Shown: positions 3,001 to 34,382 of the stretch, in pieces
Position numbering within the stretch: the first letter of the stretch is position 1
Layout of the letters: each line of letters starts with the position of its first letter
NCBI GenBank assembly: GCA_027077325.1
Contig: JALTGF010000052.1
Location: forward strand, 1-34,402
Direction of reading: 5' to 3'
Source of the DNA: an archaeon
Lineage (GTDB): Archaea > Undinarchaeota > Undinarchaeia > Undinarchaeales > JALTGF01
DNA: 34,402 nt
Made by a program: the position numbers and the translations under genes
The notes under the pieces: model-generated
Databases searched by the model: none
Told to the model about the DNA's origin: nothing
The model's input: the letters and a program-made list of their open reading frames with translations, nothing else

Positions 3001-4019
3001 GAATATCCAGTATTTCCAGAAGTATCTTGAACATAAACCTTAAATGTGTAAGTTCCAGAAGATAACCCTGTTTTGTTTTCCCAATAAACATTCCCGTTGT
3101 TATTATCAAATGTTTCAGATGCGCCGTTCCAAATCAAATTTACTGTTTGCGGATTGTCTTCAATAACTGTTGCATTTATAAAAATCCAATCCTTTTTGTA
3201 TGTCCCATTCAGGTCTGTATTTGGATTAAAATTGATTACTGGTGCGACTGTATCATCGCTAGTTTGTGCCCAGTCAACCAGTCCAGTTCCTCTGTTTCCA
3301 ACATCATCAACAGTGACTGTCTTTATTTGGTAAGAAGTACTTGGTTGAAGTCCGGTTGCATTAAAGTATTCATTTGTAGTGTTTTCTTTAAACACACCAT
3401 TAATCCAAATCTCCGTGTGGTCAAAATCTGAATCAGTTGGATTGTTCCATGTCCAATAAATCCAATTTGTCCCAACAGATTGCTCTCCTAAATTATAAAC
3501 AACGTGTGGTGGCGTAGTGTCAATTGTTAATGTTCTCGTTTGGCTGTAAACCAAGTTAGAATTGCTGTCTATGCACCTTATTTTCCATCTATAAGTTCCT
3601 TCGGTGGTTTCAGTGATAGGAACGCCATTGTATCTCCCATCTGCATTTACAGATAAGTTGCTCCATTTTTGTGAGCCATTATACCAGAGAGAGCATCCAA
3701 CAGTTGCATCATCTGGATCACTAACAGAAAAATTATGTATGTTTGTTGTTTCTTTTGTTTTGTAGTTATTTGGCGGGGAATACAAAGTTATTACAGGATA
3801 TGCACTCCCGGTCACTACAGGGGGGGTTGGCCCCGAATCTATTACTTTTGATGTTGTTGGGCTTGTTTTATTTGTGCCAATCCCTAAAAAATGGACTCCT
3901 AAAACGTGGTTTTGTGTTGGGCTTTTCTTAATTATGAAAAAAGAAGCATATATAGGGCTAACTAAAAGTAATGTAATCAATACTGTCACTGCCAAGAGTT
4001 TCGCTACATTTTTAGTCAT
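1..4019 (-). CDS. Giant secreted/surface protein with repeated FN3-like and Ig-like modules (N-terminal part; C-terminus beyond left edge)
   Basis: Minus-strand frame from ATG at 4019 reads MTKNVAKLLAVTVLITLLLVSPIYASFF... (signal peptide), then repeats of TWIYWQWTNPSDADFDHTEIWINGT..NATGLNPNTLYEI, TAGETWTCEVTVWD and SNGTY.KDWIFINVT..LEWNGVNETF modules. Frame consistency checked at 3467, 2924, 1781, 626 and 161. No stop in window, hence absent from the ORF track. Confidence 0.93.
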   Translation of the reverse strand, partial: MTKNVAKLLAVTVLITLLLVSPIYASFFIIKKSPTQNHVLGVHFLGIGTNKTSPTTSKVIDSGPTPPVVTGSAYPVITLYSPPNNYKTKETTNIHNFSVSDPDDATVGCSLWYNGSQKWSNLSVNADGRYNGVPITETTEGTYRWKIRCIDSNSNLVYSQTRTLTIDTTPPHVVYNLGEQSVGTNWIYWTWNNPTDSDFDHTEIWINGVFKENTTNEYFNATGLQPSTSYQIKTVTVDDVGNRGTGLVDWAQTSDDTVAPVINFNPNTDLNGTYKKDWIFINATVIEDNPQTVNLIWNGASETFDNNNGNVYWENKTGLSSGTYTFKVYVQDTSGNTGYSEERKVILDTTAPAGVSDLNETAIGETWIYWQWTNPSDADFDHVEVWLNGTFQENTTNEYFNATGLNPDTLYEIEIRSVDTAGNIGSFVNDTARTLTVDTLPTFDFVRINPSSPRTDDDLNCEFQYQDAENLTLPADITWYKNNIRDNEWDTTVTAQNNTLMSSNGPTASDTTAGETWTCEVTLHDRDGDVAQNSSSVTISGIPNTAPGVYITTPNNTYTRNTSPTIDYYFIDNENETGNATLYFDGNSVATEFNVQNNTPSTITPTSAQSEGTHTYYIEVYDGKDTGVSATQTITIDITAPNINYITYTDANGTYAKNWISVNVSATDANLDSVTLEWNGVNESFAQNAGDAYWTNKTGLASGTYTFRAWAEDLAENKVSTPLRTITLDNSYPGSISNLRETAVGTTWIYWQWTNPSDADFDHTEIWINGTHVADTSNPYYNATGLNPNTLYEIGTHTVDNVGNVNPNWVNDTARTLKVNHPPFFGWVNVTPDSPLSNQNLGCSFLADDNENNDFYANVTWYRDGSHLTNWDSTNIAVNNNTATNAPNAPSAADTQAGETWTCEVTVWDASGSNAMNGSETIQNVPNTKPGVYLVSPDNNSITNDNTPTHQFYFIDNENQTTSCTLYYNSSPLATNSTTFNNTVTDLTVPSSVLDGVYNWYVTCDDGISTAQSDVRTITVDTVAPSLYYNSNTDSNGTYSKDWVFINVTADDNVQLDSVVLEWNGVNETFDNHTGTLYWENKTGLAERTYTFKVYANDTAGSVVSTGERAVTLDRTPPVTVSNLDETARGTTWIYWQWTNPSDADFDHTEIWINGTHVADTSNPYYNATGLNPNTLYEIGTHTVDNVGNVNTFWINDTARTLKSQNHAPTLNLVDVIPDNPTSSDNLGCNFRFTDNENSTLLANVTWYRDGIHLNNWDQTNLAVTNNTLESTPTAPAYTDTSTGETWTCEVTVWDSAGASAMNGSETIQSSTPNTLPTIYITTRNSTIVSTSTPTIQFY
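447..626. repeat. 180-bp direct repeat, copy 1 (identical to 1602-1781)
   Basis: Base-by-base identity from attaacattcccaac to aaatccaagt; 1155 bp (385 codons) offset, in frame. Confidence 0.95.
1602..1781. repeat. 180-bp direct repeat, copy 2 (identical to 447-626)
   Basis: See copy 1. Explains the identical 44-aa N-termini of the plus-strand shadow ORFs 494..745 and 1649..1900. Confidence 0.95.
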
Positions 4020-4101
4020 TCACCCAAACATTGAGTTATTATATAGTAAAAGGGGTATTTATATTTTTGGATTTTTACCACTGGTCAGTTAAAAATATAA
4101 A

Positions 4102-4123
4102 ATCAGGTGGGGCCAGCGTGATA
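4102..4123 (-). repeat. Displaced extra copy of the tRNA-Phe 3' end (22 bp identical to 4206-4227)
   Basis: atcaggtggggccagcgtgata occurs at 4102-4123 and 4206-4227. On the minus strand it reads TATCACGCTGGCCCCACCTGAT (3' T-stem, acceptor, discriminator plus flank) and is preceded by a 9-bp hairpin CTAGGAACC...GGTTCCTAG. Confidence 0.9.
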
Positions 4124-4211
4124 CCCTAGCTAGGAACCTGCTTTGCAATTTATCCCGGTTCCTAGAACCTCCAGTAATAGAAATTATGACTACAAACAAA
4201 AAGTTATCAGG

Positions 4212-4326
4212 TGGGGCCAGCGTGATATCCAGCCGCACTGAATGCACAAAAGCGGCAGTGACGGCGTTTGAACACGCGACACCCAGATCTTCAGTCTGGT
4301 GCTCTCCCGAGCTGAGCTATGGCCCC
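4212..4326 (-). tRNA. tRNA-Phe (GAA) with a 41-nt insertion in the T-loop
   Basis: GGGGCCA TA GCTC..GAGC A CCAGA CTGAAGA TCTGG GTGTC GCGTG TTCAA[...]CACGC TGGCCCC A. Insert contains hairpin GCCGTCACTG...CAGTGCGGC. Confidence 0.88.
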
Positions 4327-4490
4327 ATTTTATAACATCTCATTAGTCTCTCTTATTATATATTAGTATTATATCATGTGAGTGTTTTTTACTTTTCTTA
4401 AGTTGTTGTTCTTGATTTGTTAAATCTATCTTATATATCTTTTTAAACCTCAAACTTTATAAGTCCAAAACACCTAACTTTAAAAAGATT

Positions 4491-4718
4491 ATGGTAACTG
4501 CTTTTATTTTAATAACAACAAAATCTGGAAAAGAAAAGAAAATCCGAAACACGCTTCTAAAAATTCCAGAAGTTAAGGAAGCCCAGGTAGTTTACGGGGA
4601 TTTTGACCTGGTTGTAAAGCTAGAAGCAGACAGCTTGGACAAACTAAACAATATTGTGCTTTCAAAAATTAGAAAACTTTCAGATATCTCTGTAACTACA
4701 ACTTTAATCTCAATATAA
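4491..4718 (+). CDS. Stand-alone Lrp/AsnC-type RAM (ligand-binding) domain protein
   Basis: VTAFILITTKSGKEKKIRNTLLKIPEVKEAQVVYGDFDLVVKLEADSLDKLNNIV is typical of AsnC_trans_reg; no HTH. Confidence 0.85.
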   Translation: MVTAFILITTKSGKEKKIRNTLLKIPEVKEAQVVYGDFDLVVKLEADSLDKLNNIVLSKIRKLSDISVTTTLISI

Positions 4719-4722
4719 CCTT

Positions 4723-4827
4723 ATGAAACTTGAAGTGCTTCTTAAAATTCTTGCAGTGTTTATGTTAATTTTTATATTAGGATTTATTTTTGCTGCAATT
4801 CATGTATTTGTTTTAGGTGGCCACTAA
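4723..4827 (+). CDS. 34-aa single-TM peptide
   Basis: ATG at 4723 to TAA at 4827: MKLEVLLKILAVFMLIFILGFIFAAIHVFVLGGH; starts 5 nt after the RAM gene stop; below the ORF-track size cutoff. Confidence 0.5.
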   Translation: MKLEVLLKILAVFMLIFILGFIFAAIHVFVLGGH

Positions 4828-4840
4828 TGTCTTTTTTTAA

Positions 4841-5257
4841 TTAAAGTACTTGTGAAAGTTTTCCTCTCATATCCTCAAGTGCAGCCTTCATGTTGTTTGT
4901 AAGTGCTTTAATCTTTTCCTTCTCAACCTGGATGTCTGAAATCCTTTTTTCACTGGTAATTATCTGGTACTCAAGTTCTTCTTTGTCTTTTTTGAGGCTT
5001 TTAATTGCCTCTTCTAGCTCTTTCTCTTCTTGCTCTCTCTTCTCAAACTCTCCTTTCAAGGTTTCCTTTGTTTTTTCAAGTGCAAGAATTGTTTCAGCAA
5101 GCTTTTGCTTTTTCTCTTCGAGAAGTGAGGTCATTCGCTCAAATCTTTCCTTTGCTTCCTGAATATTCAAAGCGTGCTCTACCTCGTGATTTAAGTTATC
5201 AATTACATTATCAATCTCTTCAACACCTATTGTTTCTAAATCCATATTTGTTCCCAT
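4841..5257 (-). CDS. Coiled-coil protein of unknown function
   Basis: 138 aa, heptad-like E/K-rich sequence. Confidence 0.75.
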   Translation of the reverse strand: MGTNMDLETIGVEEIDNVIDNLNHEVEHALNIQEAKERFERMTSLLEEKKQKLAETILALEKTKETLKGEFEKREQEEKELEEAIKSLKKDKEELEYQIITSEKRISDIQVEKEKIKALTNNMKAALEDMRGKLSQVL

Positions 5258-5301
5258 TCTAACCTCCTCATTTTCTAGTGATTAAAGTAATATAAAAATG
5301 T

Positions 5302-5712
5302 TTACCAAACTGAACTAACTGCGCTATAAATTATATGGGCCATTATTACAATTGGCAGCCCTAACTCAAAAAATGCAAGGCTAAACAAAACACCCATTAC
5401 AAGGCCATCTGCCGTAAATGGCGGCCCGTAAACAAGCCCCATATAAATCATATACAGGATAGCACTCCCTAAAAGGCCTGGAATTAGCCCAAAAGTCCCT
5501 ATTAAAAACATTAGCAGGAAAAGCCTAAAGAAAATTTCTTCAACAATTGGGCCAATTACGACAAACCATGTGCGCTTTCTCAAAATTATGAAGTTTCCTT
5601 GGTACATTATTGCCCTGATTGGGATTGCAATCCCTAAAGAGAGCAGAGCAAGGGCTATTGGAACCATCCACCAGGGTTCAAGCGTTGCAATTATATCTAT
5701 TGGATTTATCAT
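5302..5712 (-). CDS. CPBP (CAAX protease/bacteriocin-processing) family membrane protein, possibly degenerate
   Basis: EEIFFR motif and MAHIIYS; middle FxxxH motif replaced (ILYMIYMGLVYG). Confidence 0.7.
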   Translation of the reverse strand: MINPIDIIATLEPWWMVPIALALLSLGIAIPIRAIMYQGNFIILRKRTWFVVIGPIVEEIFFRLFLLMFLIGTFGLIPGLLGSAILYMIYMGLVYGPPFTADGLVMGVLFSLAFFELGLPIVIMAHIIYSAVSSVW

Positions 5713-5713
5713 T

Positions 5714-6172
5714 TTAGCCTATTTCTGATAAGAGATTATGCGTTATATGTGCAAAAATTGGGACTACTATGCCAAACTGCATAAATGCAAACCCCATAAT
5801 TATCCCAAATATTAGCCCGTCTGCAAGTTTAAGCCCGCCATATGGTATGTGTGCTATCCCAAAAAGAAGTGCGGATGCGGCAATTGCAATGATTGTTGAA
5901 TTAAAAAATGGAATTAGCAATGTTATAAGCGCGAACCTGAAAACAATCTCCTCAATTATTGGGCCCGTTACTATTGTGTGAAAAGCGCCAGTTCTCCAAC
6001 CACCCGACATTGGGCTTATAATAATCTGTGACATCAAAAAGCAGGAAATTACAAATGTAATAATTCCAAGAACTGCGCCTAGCTCAATTGGCAGAATATT
6101 AAACGTGTGGCCAAGCAAAGTAACTTCTGCGTATTTGCTTAGAATTTGCTCTAACTCTACTAAGATGTCCAT
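5714..6172 (-). CDS. CPBP family intramembrane metalloprotease
   Basis: EEIVFR, FGIAH and FAHITHN motifs; multi-TM. Confidence 0.8.
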   Translation of the reverse strand: MDILVELEQILSKYAEVTLLGHTFNILPIELGAVLGIITFVISCFLMSQIIISPMSGGWRTGAFHTIVTGPIIEEIVFRFALITLLIPFFNSTIIAIAASALLFGIAHIPYGGLKLADGLIFGIIMGFAFMQFGIVVPIFAHITHNLLSEIG

Positions 6173-6218
6173 CTTGTCACTACTACTAAGTGATAAAATT
6201 AGTATATAAACCTTTTCT

Positions 6219-6857
6219 TTATTTAATGATCCCCTTTAGTTCTCTTAAATTGTGGATAATGTAGTCCGGGCTTTTTTCTTTAATCTTTTCTTCACTTTCC
6301 CATTCATACTTTGAAAGAATTATACTTTTACACCCAACTTTTTTTGCTACTTCAACATCGTCTGCCTTGTCTCCAATGTAATACGTTTCCAAAGGGCTAC
6401 AATTTGCATTGCTAATCATGTTATCTATGGCCTCAGCTTTATTTTCAAATGGGCTATCTGCAGTTATTATTTTGTCAAATGTAGTCTTTTCAAAAAGTCC
6501 TTTTTCAAAGCAAGCATCAATAAATGCACGGTCCCCATTAGTCACTAGTGCAACATAATGGTTTTGCTCTCTCAGGTATTTTAAAATTTCATTTGCTTCT
6601 GGATCAACTCTTGAGAGTGCTAATGTTCCATCTTTCTTTAAGATTTTGTCAATTTGCTCTTTTGCCTTTTGAATTTCTTCTTCGCTCTCCCCAATTAATT
6701 CTCTTAAAACAACAATTGTCTTCGGTCCAAAATGGCTTGCAATTTCCTCATCTGTGTAAGATTTTCCAAACAATTTTATTGTTTCCTTAAATGCATGTAT
6801 CCAACTCTTTCTCGAATCTATAAGGACTCCATCAAAATCAAAAATTATGCATGCCAT
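6219..6857 (-). CDS. HAD-superfamily hydrolase
   Basis: MACIIFDFDGVLIDS...VTNGD...YIGDKADDVEVAKKVG. Start set at the internal ATG 6857 rather than the track start 6917. Confidence 0.88.
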   Translation of the reverse strand: MACIIFDFDGVLIDSRKSWIHAFKETIKLFGKSYTDEEIASHFGPKTIVVLRELIGESEEEIQKAKEQIDKILKKDGTLALSRVDPEANEILKYLREQNHYVALVTNGDRAFIDACFEKGLFEKTTFDKIITADSPFENKAEAIDNMISNANCSPLETYYIGDKADDVEVAKKVGCKSIILSKYEWESEEKIKEKSPDYIIHNLRELKGIIK

Positions 6858-6884
6858 TATAAGAACACCTTTGAAATATATGAG

Positions 6885-6900
6885 GCGCCGAGCCCAGTGG
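6885..6900 (-). repeat. Second displaced, diverged tRNA-Ser 3'-end copy
   Basis: Minus CCACTGGGCTCGGCGC matches tRNA-Ser ...TCCTGGCCTCGGCGC; also shares flanking CTCATA (tatgaggcgccgag). Preceded by hairpins ATCCTGCCTCGCGAAGCGAGTGCAGGAT and GGCTGACCACAGCC. Confidence 0.75.
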
Positions 6901-6981
6901 CTGTGGTCAGCCAGCACCCATCCTGCACTCGCTTCGCGAGGCAGGATTTGATTTTTATTTCAAGTACTTGCAAATGTATAA

Positions 6982-6999
6982 GCGCCGAGACCAGGATTT
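6982..6999 (-). repeat. First displaced tRNA-Ser 3'-end copy (17/18 match)
   Basis: gcgccgagaccaggattt at 6982-6999 vs gcgccgaggccaggattt at 7090-7107. Confidence 0.9.
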
Positions 7000-7004
7000 C
7001 CGCC

Positions 7005-7030
7005 CCTTTTCTTTTCGCGAAAAGAAAAGG
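7005..7030. repeat. Perfect 26-bp palindrome ccttttcttttcgcgaaaagaaaagg
   Basis: Checked base by base around centre 7017/7018. Confidence 0.95.
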
Positions 7031-7090
7031 TGTAGGGTAGCCCAAAAGAAAAGGCAAGGTATTACCCTTTTTTTATTATATATTATGAGG

Positions 7091-7215
7091 CGCCGAGGCC
7101 AGGATTTACAGTTCGCAAGCGAACGTAAATGTCCGCTTCGCGCACATTTGAACCTGGAAGGGCAAAGCCCACCTGCTCTCAAGGCAGGCGCGTTACCTGG
7201 TTCCGCCACCTCGGC
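7091..7215 (-). tRNA. tRNA-Ser (TGA) with a ~42-nt insertion in the T-loop
   Basis: GCCGAGG TG..., anticodon arm CCTGC CTTGAGA GCAGG, long variable arm GGGCTTTGCCC, T-stem CCAGG TTCAA[...]AAT CCTGG, acceptor CCTCGGC, discriminator G. Insert holds two hairpins (AAATGTGCGCGAAGCGGACATTT and TTTACGTTCGCTTGCGAACTGTAAA). Confidence 0.87.
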
Positions 7216-7265
7216 GTTTGTCAAACCTGTTTGCTATTGTTTAAAAAACTTTCAAGTACTTAAAA

Positions 7266-8105
7266 TTAGCGCTTATCCCATGGTTTTTTAATTTTGCCTT
7301 CATCCATTAGTTTATAAATAACTGCTGCCACGTGCTGGCACATTACAAGAATCTTTCTATGTTGCTGAACAATAAAGTCTTTACATTCACAGCTCCAGTT
7401 CCACTCCTCTGGTTCTCTATCAAGATTTTCAATTGTTACCATTCGGCTTCTGTGAATGTCGCTAAATGAGGGAACTTTTACTAAAACTTTAGTTATTTGT
7501 TTCTTTGAGTTGTAATGTTCTTCAATGTATTTCCAACTTCTAAGCTCTTCTCTATGCAACAAGTAAATTCTCCAACCCTTTGAAAGCCGTTTCCAATCAA
7601 TTAAAAGATGAAACCCAAGTTTATCTGCAGTTCTCTTTCCCCAAGGCAATGCTAACGGTATTGTTTTTCTTTTCCTAAATGAATACGCCTCATATCTATT
7701 AACTAGCCTCTGAAAATCTTTCTGCCAGACCCACTCACTTTTAGCATAAATTAAAAGGGCGCGGGCACAAAAGCAAAAGACAATTTGCCCAACAAGGTCC
7801 TTAAAAAGCCGCTCAATTGCCCAATCCTTTTTCTCATAAATTAACTTTGGAACAGATGTGAAAAAATCAGAGCTTATCTGGACAATTCCTCTCTGCAGCT
7901 TTTTCTCAAAATTTTTTCTGTATCTCTTTGGGATTTTTTCATACAATTCATACAACTTATTTAACAAATCTTCTTTTATTGCTAAATCGTAATTTCTTTC
8001 CAATACCTCTTGTGTTTCTTCCCAGGACAAGTTTTCTCTCTTTGCTTTTAGTATAGAAAGCTCAATCTTCCTAATTGACTTTTCAATGTTCTCTAAATCG
8101 CTCAT
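7266..8105 (-). CDS. SWIM-type zinc finger protein
   Basis: C-terminal CECKDF...VMCQHVAAVIYKL (CxCxnCxH). Confidence 0.75.
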   Translation of the reverse strand: MSDLENIEKSIRKIELSILKAKRENLSWEETQEVLERNYDLAIKEDLLNKLYELYEKIPKRYRKNFEKKLQRGIVQISSDFFTSVPKLIYEKKDWAIERLFKDLVGQIVFCFCARALLIYAKSEWVWQKDFQRLVNRYEAYSFRKRKTIPLALPWGKRTADKLGFHLLIDWKRLSKGWRIYLLHREELRSWKYIEEHYNSKKQITKVLVKVPSFSDIHRSRMVTIENLDREPEEWNWSCECKDFIVQQHRKILVMCQHVAAVIYKLMDEGKIKKPWDKR

Positions 8106-34182: not shown

Positions 34183-34382
34183 AGCCCCGAGGGAGAGTTG
34201 AACTCCCGACCTCCTGTTTGCTTGAGCCTTATGCGAGCGCGCTTGCGCGCGAGCCATGCTATCTCGCGAAGCGAGTGTAGCATATTTTTCGCCAGCCTTT
34301 TCAGGATGGCGCAAGCACTTACCCGTTCACATGTTAAAAGGCTGTACAAGACAGGCGCTCTAGCCAGCTGAGCTATCGAGGC
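34183..34382 (-). tRNA. tRNA-Thr (TGT) with ~126-nt anticodon-loop intron
   Basis: GCCTCGA TA GCTC..GAGC G CCTGT CTTGTA[126 nt]A ACAGG AGGTC GGGAG TTCAACT CTCCC TCGGGGC T. Confidence 0.9.

Follow-up and report, generated by a model that had tools for sequence, protein, structure and literature searches.

Hairpin-forming elements beside archaeal tRNA genes that probably insert at tRNA 3′ ends and duplicate the local 3′ end

Introduction

Several described genetic systems involve the 3′ ends or the introns of tRNA genes. Casposons insert at tRNA 3′ ends with a target duplication of about 14 bp; they are larger than the elements described here, carry terminal inverted repeats and use Cas1. Archaeal tRNA introns of the bulge-helix-bulge (BHB) type are known at sites other than the anticodon loop, and in Thermoproteales tRNA introns are known to transpose. 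In enterobacteria such as Escherichia coli, the RtT repeats (RF00391; tyrT-tpr repeats, rttR) consist of a hairpin unit downstream of a tRNA gene followed by the tRNA 3′ end from the T loop onwards, and one core recurs at different tRNAs, each time followed by the local 3′ end. Elements of the SSV/pNOB8 type leave a direct repeat of the tRNA 3′ end (44 bp for SSV1) and reconstitute the tRNA, and such integration has been linked to tRNA intron gain (PMC3293823). Prokaryotic miniature inverted-repeat transposable elements (MITEs) are short, non-coding, dispersed in multiple copies and non-autonomous; tRNA is not mentioned in the text of a review of them (PMC10969869). Here we analyze a 34,402-nt contig of an archaeon of the order Undinarchaeales (JALTGF010000052.1; hereafter the window), in which tRNA genes are followed by displaced copies of their own 3′ ends. 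We consider it probable that these copies arise where non-coding, hairpin-forming, non-autonomous mobile elements of ~40–105 bp insert at tRNA 3′ ends and duplicate the local 3′ end.

These elements resemble each of the described systems in part. Like casposons, they would duplicate their target on inserting at tRNA 3′ ends; the larger size, terminal inverted repeats, duplication length and Cas1 of casposons set the two apart. The T-loop inserts of the genome match the format of archaeal BHB introns, whereas the elements that carry displaced ends lie outside the mature tRNA and do not need splicing. With SSV/pNOB8-type elements they have in common the direct repeat, the reconstituted tRNA and a possible link to intron gain, but they measure 40–105 bp rather than kilobases, no integrase was found for them, and one core occurs at many tRNAs with local repeats. 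Like MITEs they are short, non-coding, dispersed and non-autonomous, here with empty sites, but without terminal inverted repeats or a parent transposase that we could find, and with mostly tRNA targets and a long, variable target duplication.

Results

One element core at different tRNAs, each with a local repeat

The genome from which the window derives contains eight copies of one element, element A, all beside tRNA genes (Ser, Pro, Gly, Gln, Leu twice, Val and Glu). The two copies at tRNA-Leu are in tandem, the copy at tRNA-Val is a remnant, and that at tRNA-Glu is an A-like copy lying upstream of the gene. Beyond these tRNA loci, no match of comparable score was found in this genome. The cores have two hairpins in common, and 8 of their 18 predicted pairs show compensatory changes on both sides. 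Where a displaced end follows element A, it is that of the local tRNA; at tRNA-Gly, the direct repeat is identical at 36 of 36 positions and reaches 19 bp beyond the tRNA into the trailer. Since the core is common to the loci while the repeat is local to each, the arrangement carries the signature of insertion with target duplication. The original prediction, made from the window alone, had a unit of hairpin plus tRNA 3′ end supplying a new end. Delivery of a donor tRNA's 3′ end is not supported, because the displaced end duplicates the local tRNA and the element core is common to different tRNAs. Outside this genome, an RNA model of element A gave weak matches only (G001, G002, G021 and G046), none of those inspected being at a tRNA gene, and exact-pattern scans for the element in genome and viral contig collections returned no match.

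Other families and empty sites in relatives

Five genomes of the same order (G001–G005) served as relatives. Element B of G002 occurs at tRNA-Gln, -Leu, -Ile and -Trp, with 6 of its 12 copies near a tRNA, and element D of G004 and G005 at Val, Thr, Ile, Phe, Arg, Pro and Glu, where 10 of 11 copies lie within ~150 bp of a tRNA. A displaced Phe tail is present in G001. Also in G001, another repeat lies directly 3′ of tRNA genes; it is bounded by long terminal inverted repeats (ATTTAAYATCGG...CCGATRTTAAAT) and contains the motif GGTGCAG...TTGCAAGGGAA.

Occupied and empty versions of the same site could be compared. At tRNA-Val, G004 and G005 agree at 210 of 213 positions upstream and, beyond the displaced copy, at 116 of 120 positions of the distal flank; between these flanks, G004 has an insertion of 113 bp. 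The site is also empty in G003. Comparisons at Thr and Ile had the same outcome, and the Lys empty site was compared by eye. The presence of occupied and empty sites in sister species of one genus thus indicates recent insertion, the direction of change being most simply a gain. In these comparisons, the ancestral flank adjoins the displaced, distal copy, and one part of the original prediction stands: a miniature mobile unit acts at the T loop and the old 3′ end is left downstream.

Presence and absence between sister species also bears on a reading in which the elements are non-mobile functional RNA modules, that is, processing or regulatory structures in tRNA transcripts that arose by local tandem duplication and were kept for their match to the tRNA. 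The RNA structure is indeed kept by compensatory change, and the E. coli RtT, annotated as a small or cis-regulatory RNA, has a left arm complementary to the displaced tail. The variation between sister species, the different families in each genus, the near-identical cores at unrelated tRNAs and the decayed copies nevertheless make this reading improbable; a function acquired after insertion could still exist.

Insertion footprints and the search for mobility enzymes

Direct repeats of 16–36 bp with full or near-full identity were found at Gly, Phe, Arg (22/22), Val, Thr, Ile, Pro, Glu and Lys. The cleanest of them start at tRNA position 56–59 and end at +0 to +19, elsewhere extending up to +44; positions are numbered backwards from the discriminator base, with a possible error of 1–2 where a match happens to run on by chance. 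The right end of the element is constant within a family and often reads GGTTC or GTTCGGA, both T-loop-like. The left end is sometimes shortened, as at Glu (with a TTTTTC microhomology) and Pro; most element D copies share one left end, and some element B copies have longer 5′ ends. The tRNA adjoining its 5′ body remains complete after insertion. No terminal inverted repeats were visible by eye at the exact junctions of the Gly, Arg, Val and Phe copies.

Profile searches found no tyrosine recombinase (PF00589) or reverse transcriptase (PF00078) in G001–G005, and no Y1 transposase (PF01797) in any of the six genomes. The source bin holds two tyrosine recombinases on short, bacterial-looking contigs, one of them beside an IS91-type gene; we discounted these as element machinery, the contigs being likely contaminants. 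Its single reverse transcriptase, similar to those of bacterial group II introns and probably a contaminant, was likewise rejected. Four small, possibly foreign contigs (C8, C146, C74 and C179) feature a second tRNA-Phe, the IS91-type unit, a tyrosine recombinase and the group II intron-type reverse transcriptase, and are probable bin contamination.

Three enzymatic routes can be weighed against these observations. One is an origin as collapsed tyrosine-integrase elements of the SSV/pNOB8 type, which use tRNA 3′ ends as attachment sites; the original prediction had named collapsed remnants of integrase-type elements targeting the T-arm as its own alternative. Direct repeats of tRNA 3′ ends are a hallmark of such elements, but one core at many tRNAs, each with a local repeat, is unexpected from a single attP, identity begins at positions 56–59 and not across the whole 7-nt loop, and integrases are confined to the suspect contigs of the source bin. 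We regard this origin as very unlikely.

SINE-like retroposition, in which a structured RNA would be copied at a T-loop nick and a second nick in the trailer would yield a target duplication of variable length and 5′-truncated copies, is a second route. The constant right end, the left truncations at Pro and Glu, the longer 5′ ends of some element B copies, a repeat length that varies with one side fixed, and the conserved RNA pairing would all be expected of it. It remains an unlikely route, given the single left end of most element D copies, the lack of a poly-A or other tail and the absence of a reverse transcriptase from the relatives, although a source outside the genome is possible. A stop of reverse transcriptase at methylated A58 would be an attractive cause of the fixed edge but was rejected, because no such enzyme was found and the same edge occurs in E. 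coli.

A DNA transposase or recombinase, for example Cas1/casposase-like or supplied by host or virus, might make one cut in the T loop and another in the trailer and so insert the element with target duplication; this is a possibility, if a less than likely one. It fits the clean target duplications at Arg and Gly and the empty sites, and the element B copies at non-tRNA sites favor an unknown transposase. Against it, terminal inverted repeats were not seen, repeat length ranges from 16 to 57 bp, and the tyrosine recombinase and Y1 families are absent in the relatives, in searches that did not extend to Cas1 or other transposase families.

Displaced 3′ ends and T-loop inserts

Displaced ends were identified in the source genome by comparing the 13-nt tail of each tRNA with its downstream sequence, using the tails of the other tRNAs as control. 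Downstream of Phe, Ser, Gly and Leu, the own tail outscored all others (0 of 27–29 others better). In total, 6 of 30 tRNAs have a displaced own tail (Phe, Ser, Pro, Gln, Gly and Leu), the tail alone not being decisive for Pro and Gln, where element and flank give support. Across the five relatives, 9 of 98 tRNAs had an own-tail match of at least 12/14 within 250 bp, versus 13 of 1,924 control comparisons. Among tRNAs near rpo genes in other archaea, a biased sample, the figure was 1 of 90, the single case being in a Woesearchaeote.

In the window, two tRNA genes have displaced ends, both on the minus strand. The tRNA-Phe(GAA) gene comprises exon 1 (tRNA positions 1 to ~59; 4326–4267), a 41-nt T-loop insert of BHB type (4266–4226), in which UUCA pairs with UGGA, followed by a 3-nt bulge and the T-stem, and exon 2 (4225–4212) with the last T-loop base, the 3′ strands of T-stem and acceptor, and the discriminator. 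The inserted segment 3′ of it (4205–4124) holds a hairpin (4165–4130) and has no evident sequence relation to element A. It is followed by the displaced 3′ end with 6 bp of trailer (4123–4102; TATCACGCTGGCCCCACCTGAT), a direct repeat of 22/22 that lies 104 bp from the functional 3′ end. The tRNA-Ser(UGA) gene consists of exon 1 (7215–7147), a 42-nt T-loop insert (7146–7105) resembling that of tRNA-Ser(CGA) on contig C40, and exon 2 (7104–7091). Downstream lie a perfect hairpin (7029–7006), the first displaced Ser 3′ end (about 7000–6982; 108 bp from the functional end), a two-hairpin copy of element A (6981–6899; 95% identity over 76 bp to the tRNA-Pro copy on contig C181) and, 97 bp beyond the first, the second displaced 3′ end with a CCTCATA trailer (6898–6879; 18/19 versus the functional end). 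The inserts, the displaced own ends and their spacings were thus as originally predicted, except that the last Ser unit, rather than having a hairpin of its own, is one copy of the dispersed element A.

A further gene of the window with an interrupted T loop had been overlooked: tRNA-Lys(UUU), on the minus strand (21173–21067 from the 5′ end through the insert), has a 31-nt T-loop insert (21097–21067) without a displaced copy, and within the window it is a counter-example to any coupling of inserts with displaced ends. Two nearly identical genes for tRNA-Thr(UGU), each interrupted by a long intron in the anticodon loop, lie at window positions 34183–34382 and at C40:1124–1323; their downstream sequences differ, and they represent a duplicated gene or an assembly artifact. 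Contig C12 of the same bin has a class II tRNA resembling tRNA-Ser with a 20-nt T-loop insert, an anticodon loop CTGATGA and, by position, the anticodon GAT. The window itself (contig C52, 34.4 kb) belongs to a fragmented archaeal bin (769 kb, 75.9% complete) that encodes ribosomal proteins, EF-1A, EF-2 and RNA polymerase; in a search of a genome contig collection, the closest match to its RpoA′ had at most 59% identity, and the lineage is therefore isolated. Its genome size and gene content suggest an archaeon of the DPANN type.

In the BHB format as it applies to these inserts, the T-loop sequence UUCA forms a 4-bp central helix with four bases that a 3-nt bulge separates from the T-stem. 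Among nine inserts tested, this central helix is perfect in five (background 1.3%, p ~4e-8) and has at least 3 of 4 pairs in eight (background 14.4%, p ~1.5e-6); the tRNA-Pro insert fits poorly. Judged by this format, they are therefore most likely ordinary spliced archaeal BHB introns in an unusual position, separate from the displaced-end elements. The original prediction had coupled the two features and named enrichment of displaced ends beside interrupted tRNAs as its test. No significant enrichment was seen: about ten tRNAs of the source genome have T-loop inserts, and displaced ends occur at 3 of these versus 3 of 20 intact tRNAs (Fisher p = 0.37), while the relatives' displaced ends occur at intact T loops. 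By the prediction's own test, this counts against the coupling but not against the mobile unit. Use of displaced ends as alternative 3′ splice sites was rejected as a general rule; some fit (UGAG + 3 nt + T-stem at Gly, also Ile and Phe of G004), many do not.

A model in which hairpin and tRNA 3′ end insert at the T loop, become intron and new exon, and displace the old end still has some points in its favor. Introns and elements act at the same spot (T-loop positions 56–60), three loci have both features, and near-identical T-loop introns in three Diapherotrites tRNAs suggest that introns themselves spread. As a general account it is nonetheless highly improbable, since the coupling is not significant and the displaced ends correspond to the tRNA beside them rather than to a donor; at single loci it could still hold. 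Some displaced ends could serve as 3′ splice sites, so that one feature might be converted into the other. The Diapherotrites genome (G061) has many T-loop inserts, and the near-identical ones, in tRNA-Ile, tRNA-Gly and tRNA-Phe, suggest by their similarity a spreading T-loop intron family. Many T-loop inserts also occur in a Woesearchaeote (G060), with one further displaced tail; downstream of its tRNA-Pro(GGG), two 60-bp units are arranged in tandem, both with a copy of the tRNA tail at their end.

Shared architecture with the RtT repeats of E. coli

E. coli K-12 shows one layout downstream of tyrT/tyrV, of six tRNA-Lys genes and of three tRNA-Arg genes: a hairpin core that these loci share, and after it 16 nt that repeat the local tail perfectly, starting at tRNA position 58. 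The loci showing core plus local tail are tyrTV, the lysT operon, argQZYV and lysV. The Rfam RtT model (RF00391) matches the Tyr and Lys loci, and RtT matches per genome have a median of 8 (range 1–18). Run against window positions 4000–7300 and five other loci, this covariance model gave no match up to E = 10. The archaeal elements share the RtT architecture without sequence membership. In contrast to RtT, they differ between genera, are mostly single insertions of 40–105 bp and have empty sites in sister species. At the E. coli loci, the left arm of the core (at tyrV, for example, GGGGAAGGAT) and the displaced tail are complementary, a feature not seen generally in archaea. While the layout is known from E. 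coli, archaeal families with empty sites appear to be new as far as we found, in a literature search that excludes older RtT papers.

Discussion

Local duplication at many tRNAs by one core, together with the empty sites, leads us to favor insertion of small mobile elements at tRNA 3′ ends. How the insertion proceeds is a more tentative matter. The step we consider likeliest is template switching or ectopic repair, in which a strand might leave a donor element that already has a displaced T-loop/T-stem at its end and return to the recipient gene, crossing at the T-loop motif common to all tRNAs, GTTCRAATC. The element would be copied from elsewhere, its left, sometimes truncated, end would be joined to the trailer, and the local tRNA would be re-entered at the T loop, whereby its 3′ end is duplicated and the tRNA survives. 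A dedicated enzyme would not be needed. Switching through the T-loop motif would explain why the right edge is fixed, why the repeat is local, why tRNA genes are preferred and why no enzyme was found; taken by itself, this step is a possibility to which we give less than even weight.

Several observations weigh against insertion at tRNA 3′ ends by such a route. Half of the element B copies lie away from tRNA genes, and at least one of them (G002 C7:30177–30257) has an 11-bp direct repeat, GAGTTAGAATA, outside tRNA sequence, which points to true transposition, the repeat itself being T-loop-like. A local repeat is missing from some element copies, namely two element D copies in inverse orientation and the A-like copy that lies 5′ of tRNA-Glu. 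At Gln, Leu and Pro of the source genome, the displaced T-stem poorly matches the local one, which drift or a donor remnant would explain equally. That the step is enzyme-free is something we infer, and an unrecognized transposase would leave the same footprints. Finally, the genomes are metagenome bins, of which only G001 is as complete as 98%.

A broader proposal is that T loops are general landing sites, in archaea and bacteria, for minimal mobile elements that would move enzyme-free by template switching, regenerate their tail and could be converted into T-loop introns on loss of the proximal tail. We put this forward as speculation and think it rather unlikely in its full form.

If mobile elements do insert at tRNA 3′ ends as we consider probable, displaced tRNA tails are traces of insertion rather than peculiarities of a single locus, and pairs of empty and occupied sites make the insertion mechanism readable base by base. 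The comparison links RtT, a long-known E. coli repeat for which explanations have been weak, to archaeal units of the same layout, and it offers a testable route to the origin of T-loop introns. For small archaeal genomes, it also indicates that tRNA annotation overlooks interrupted genes.

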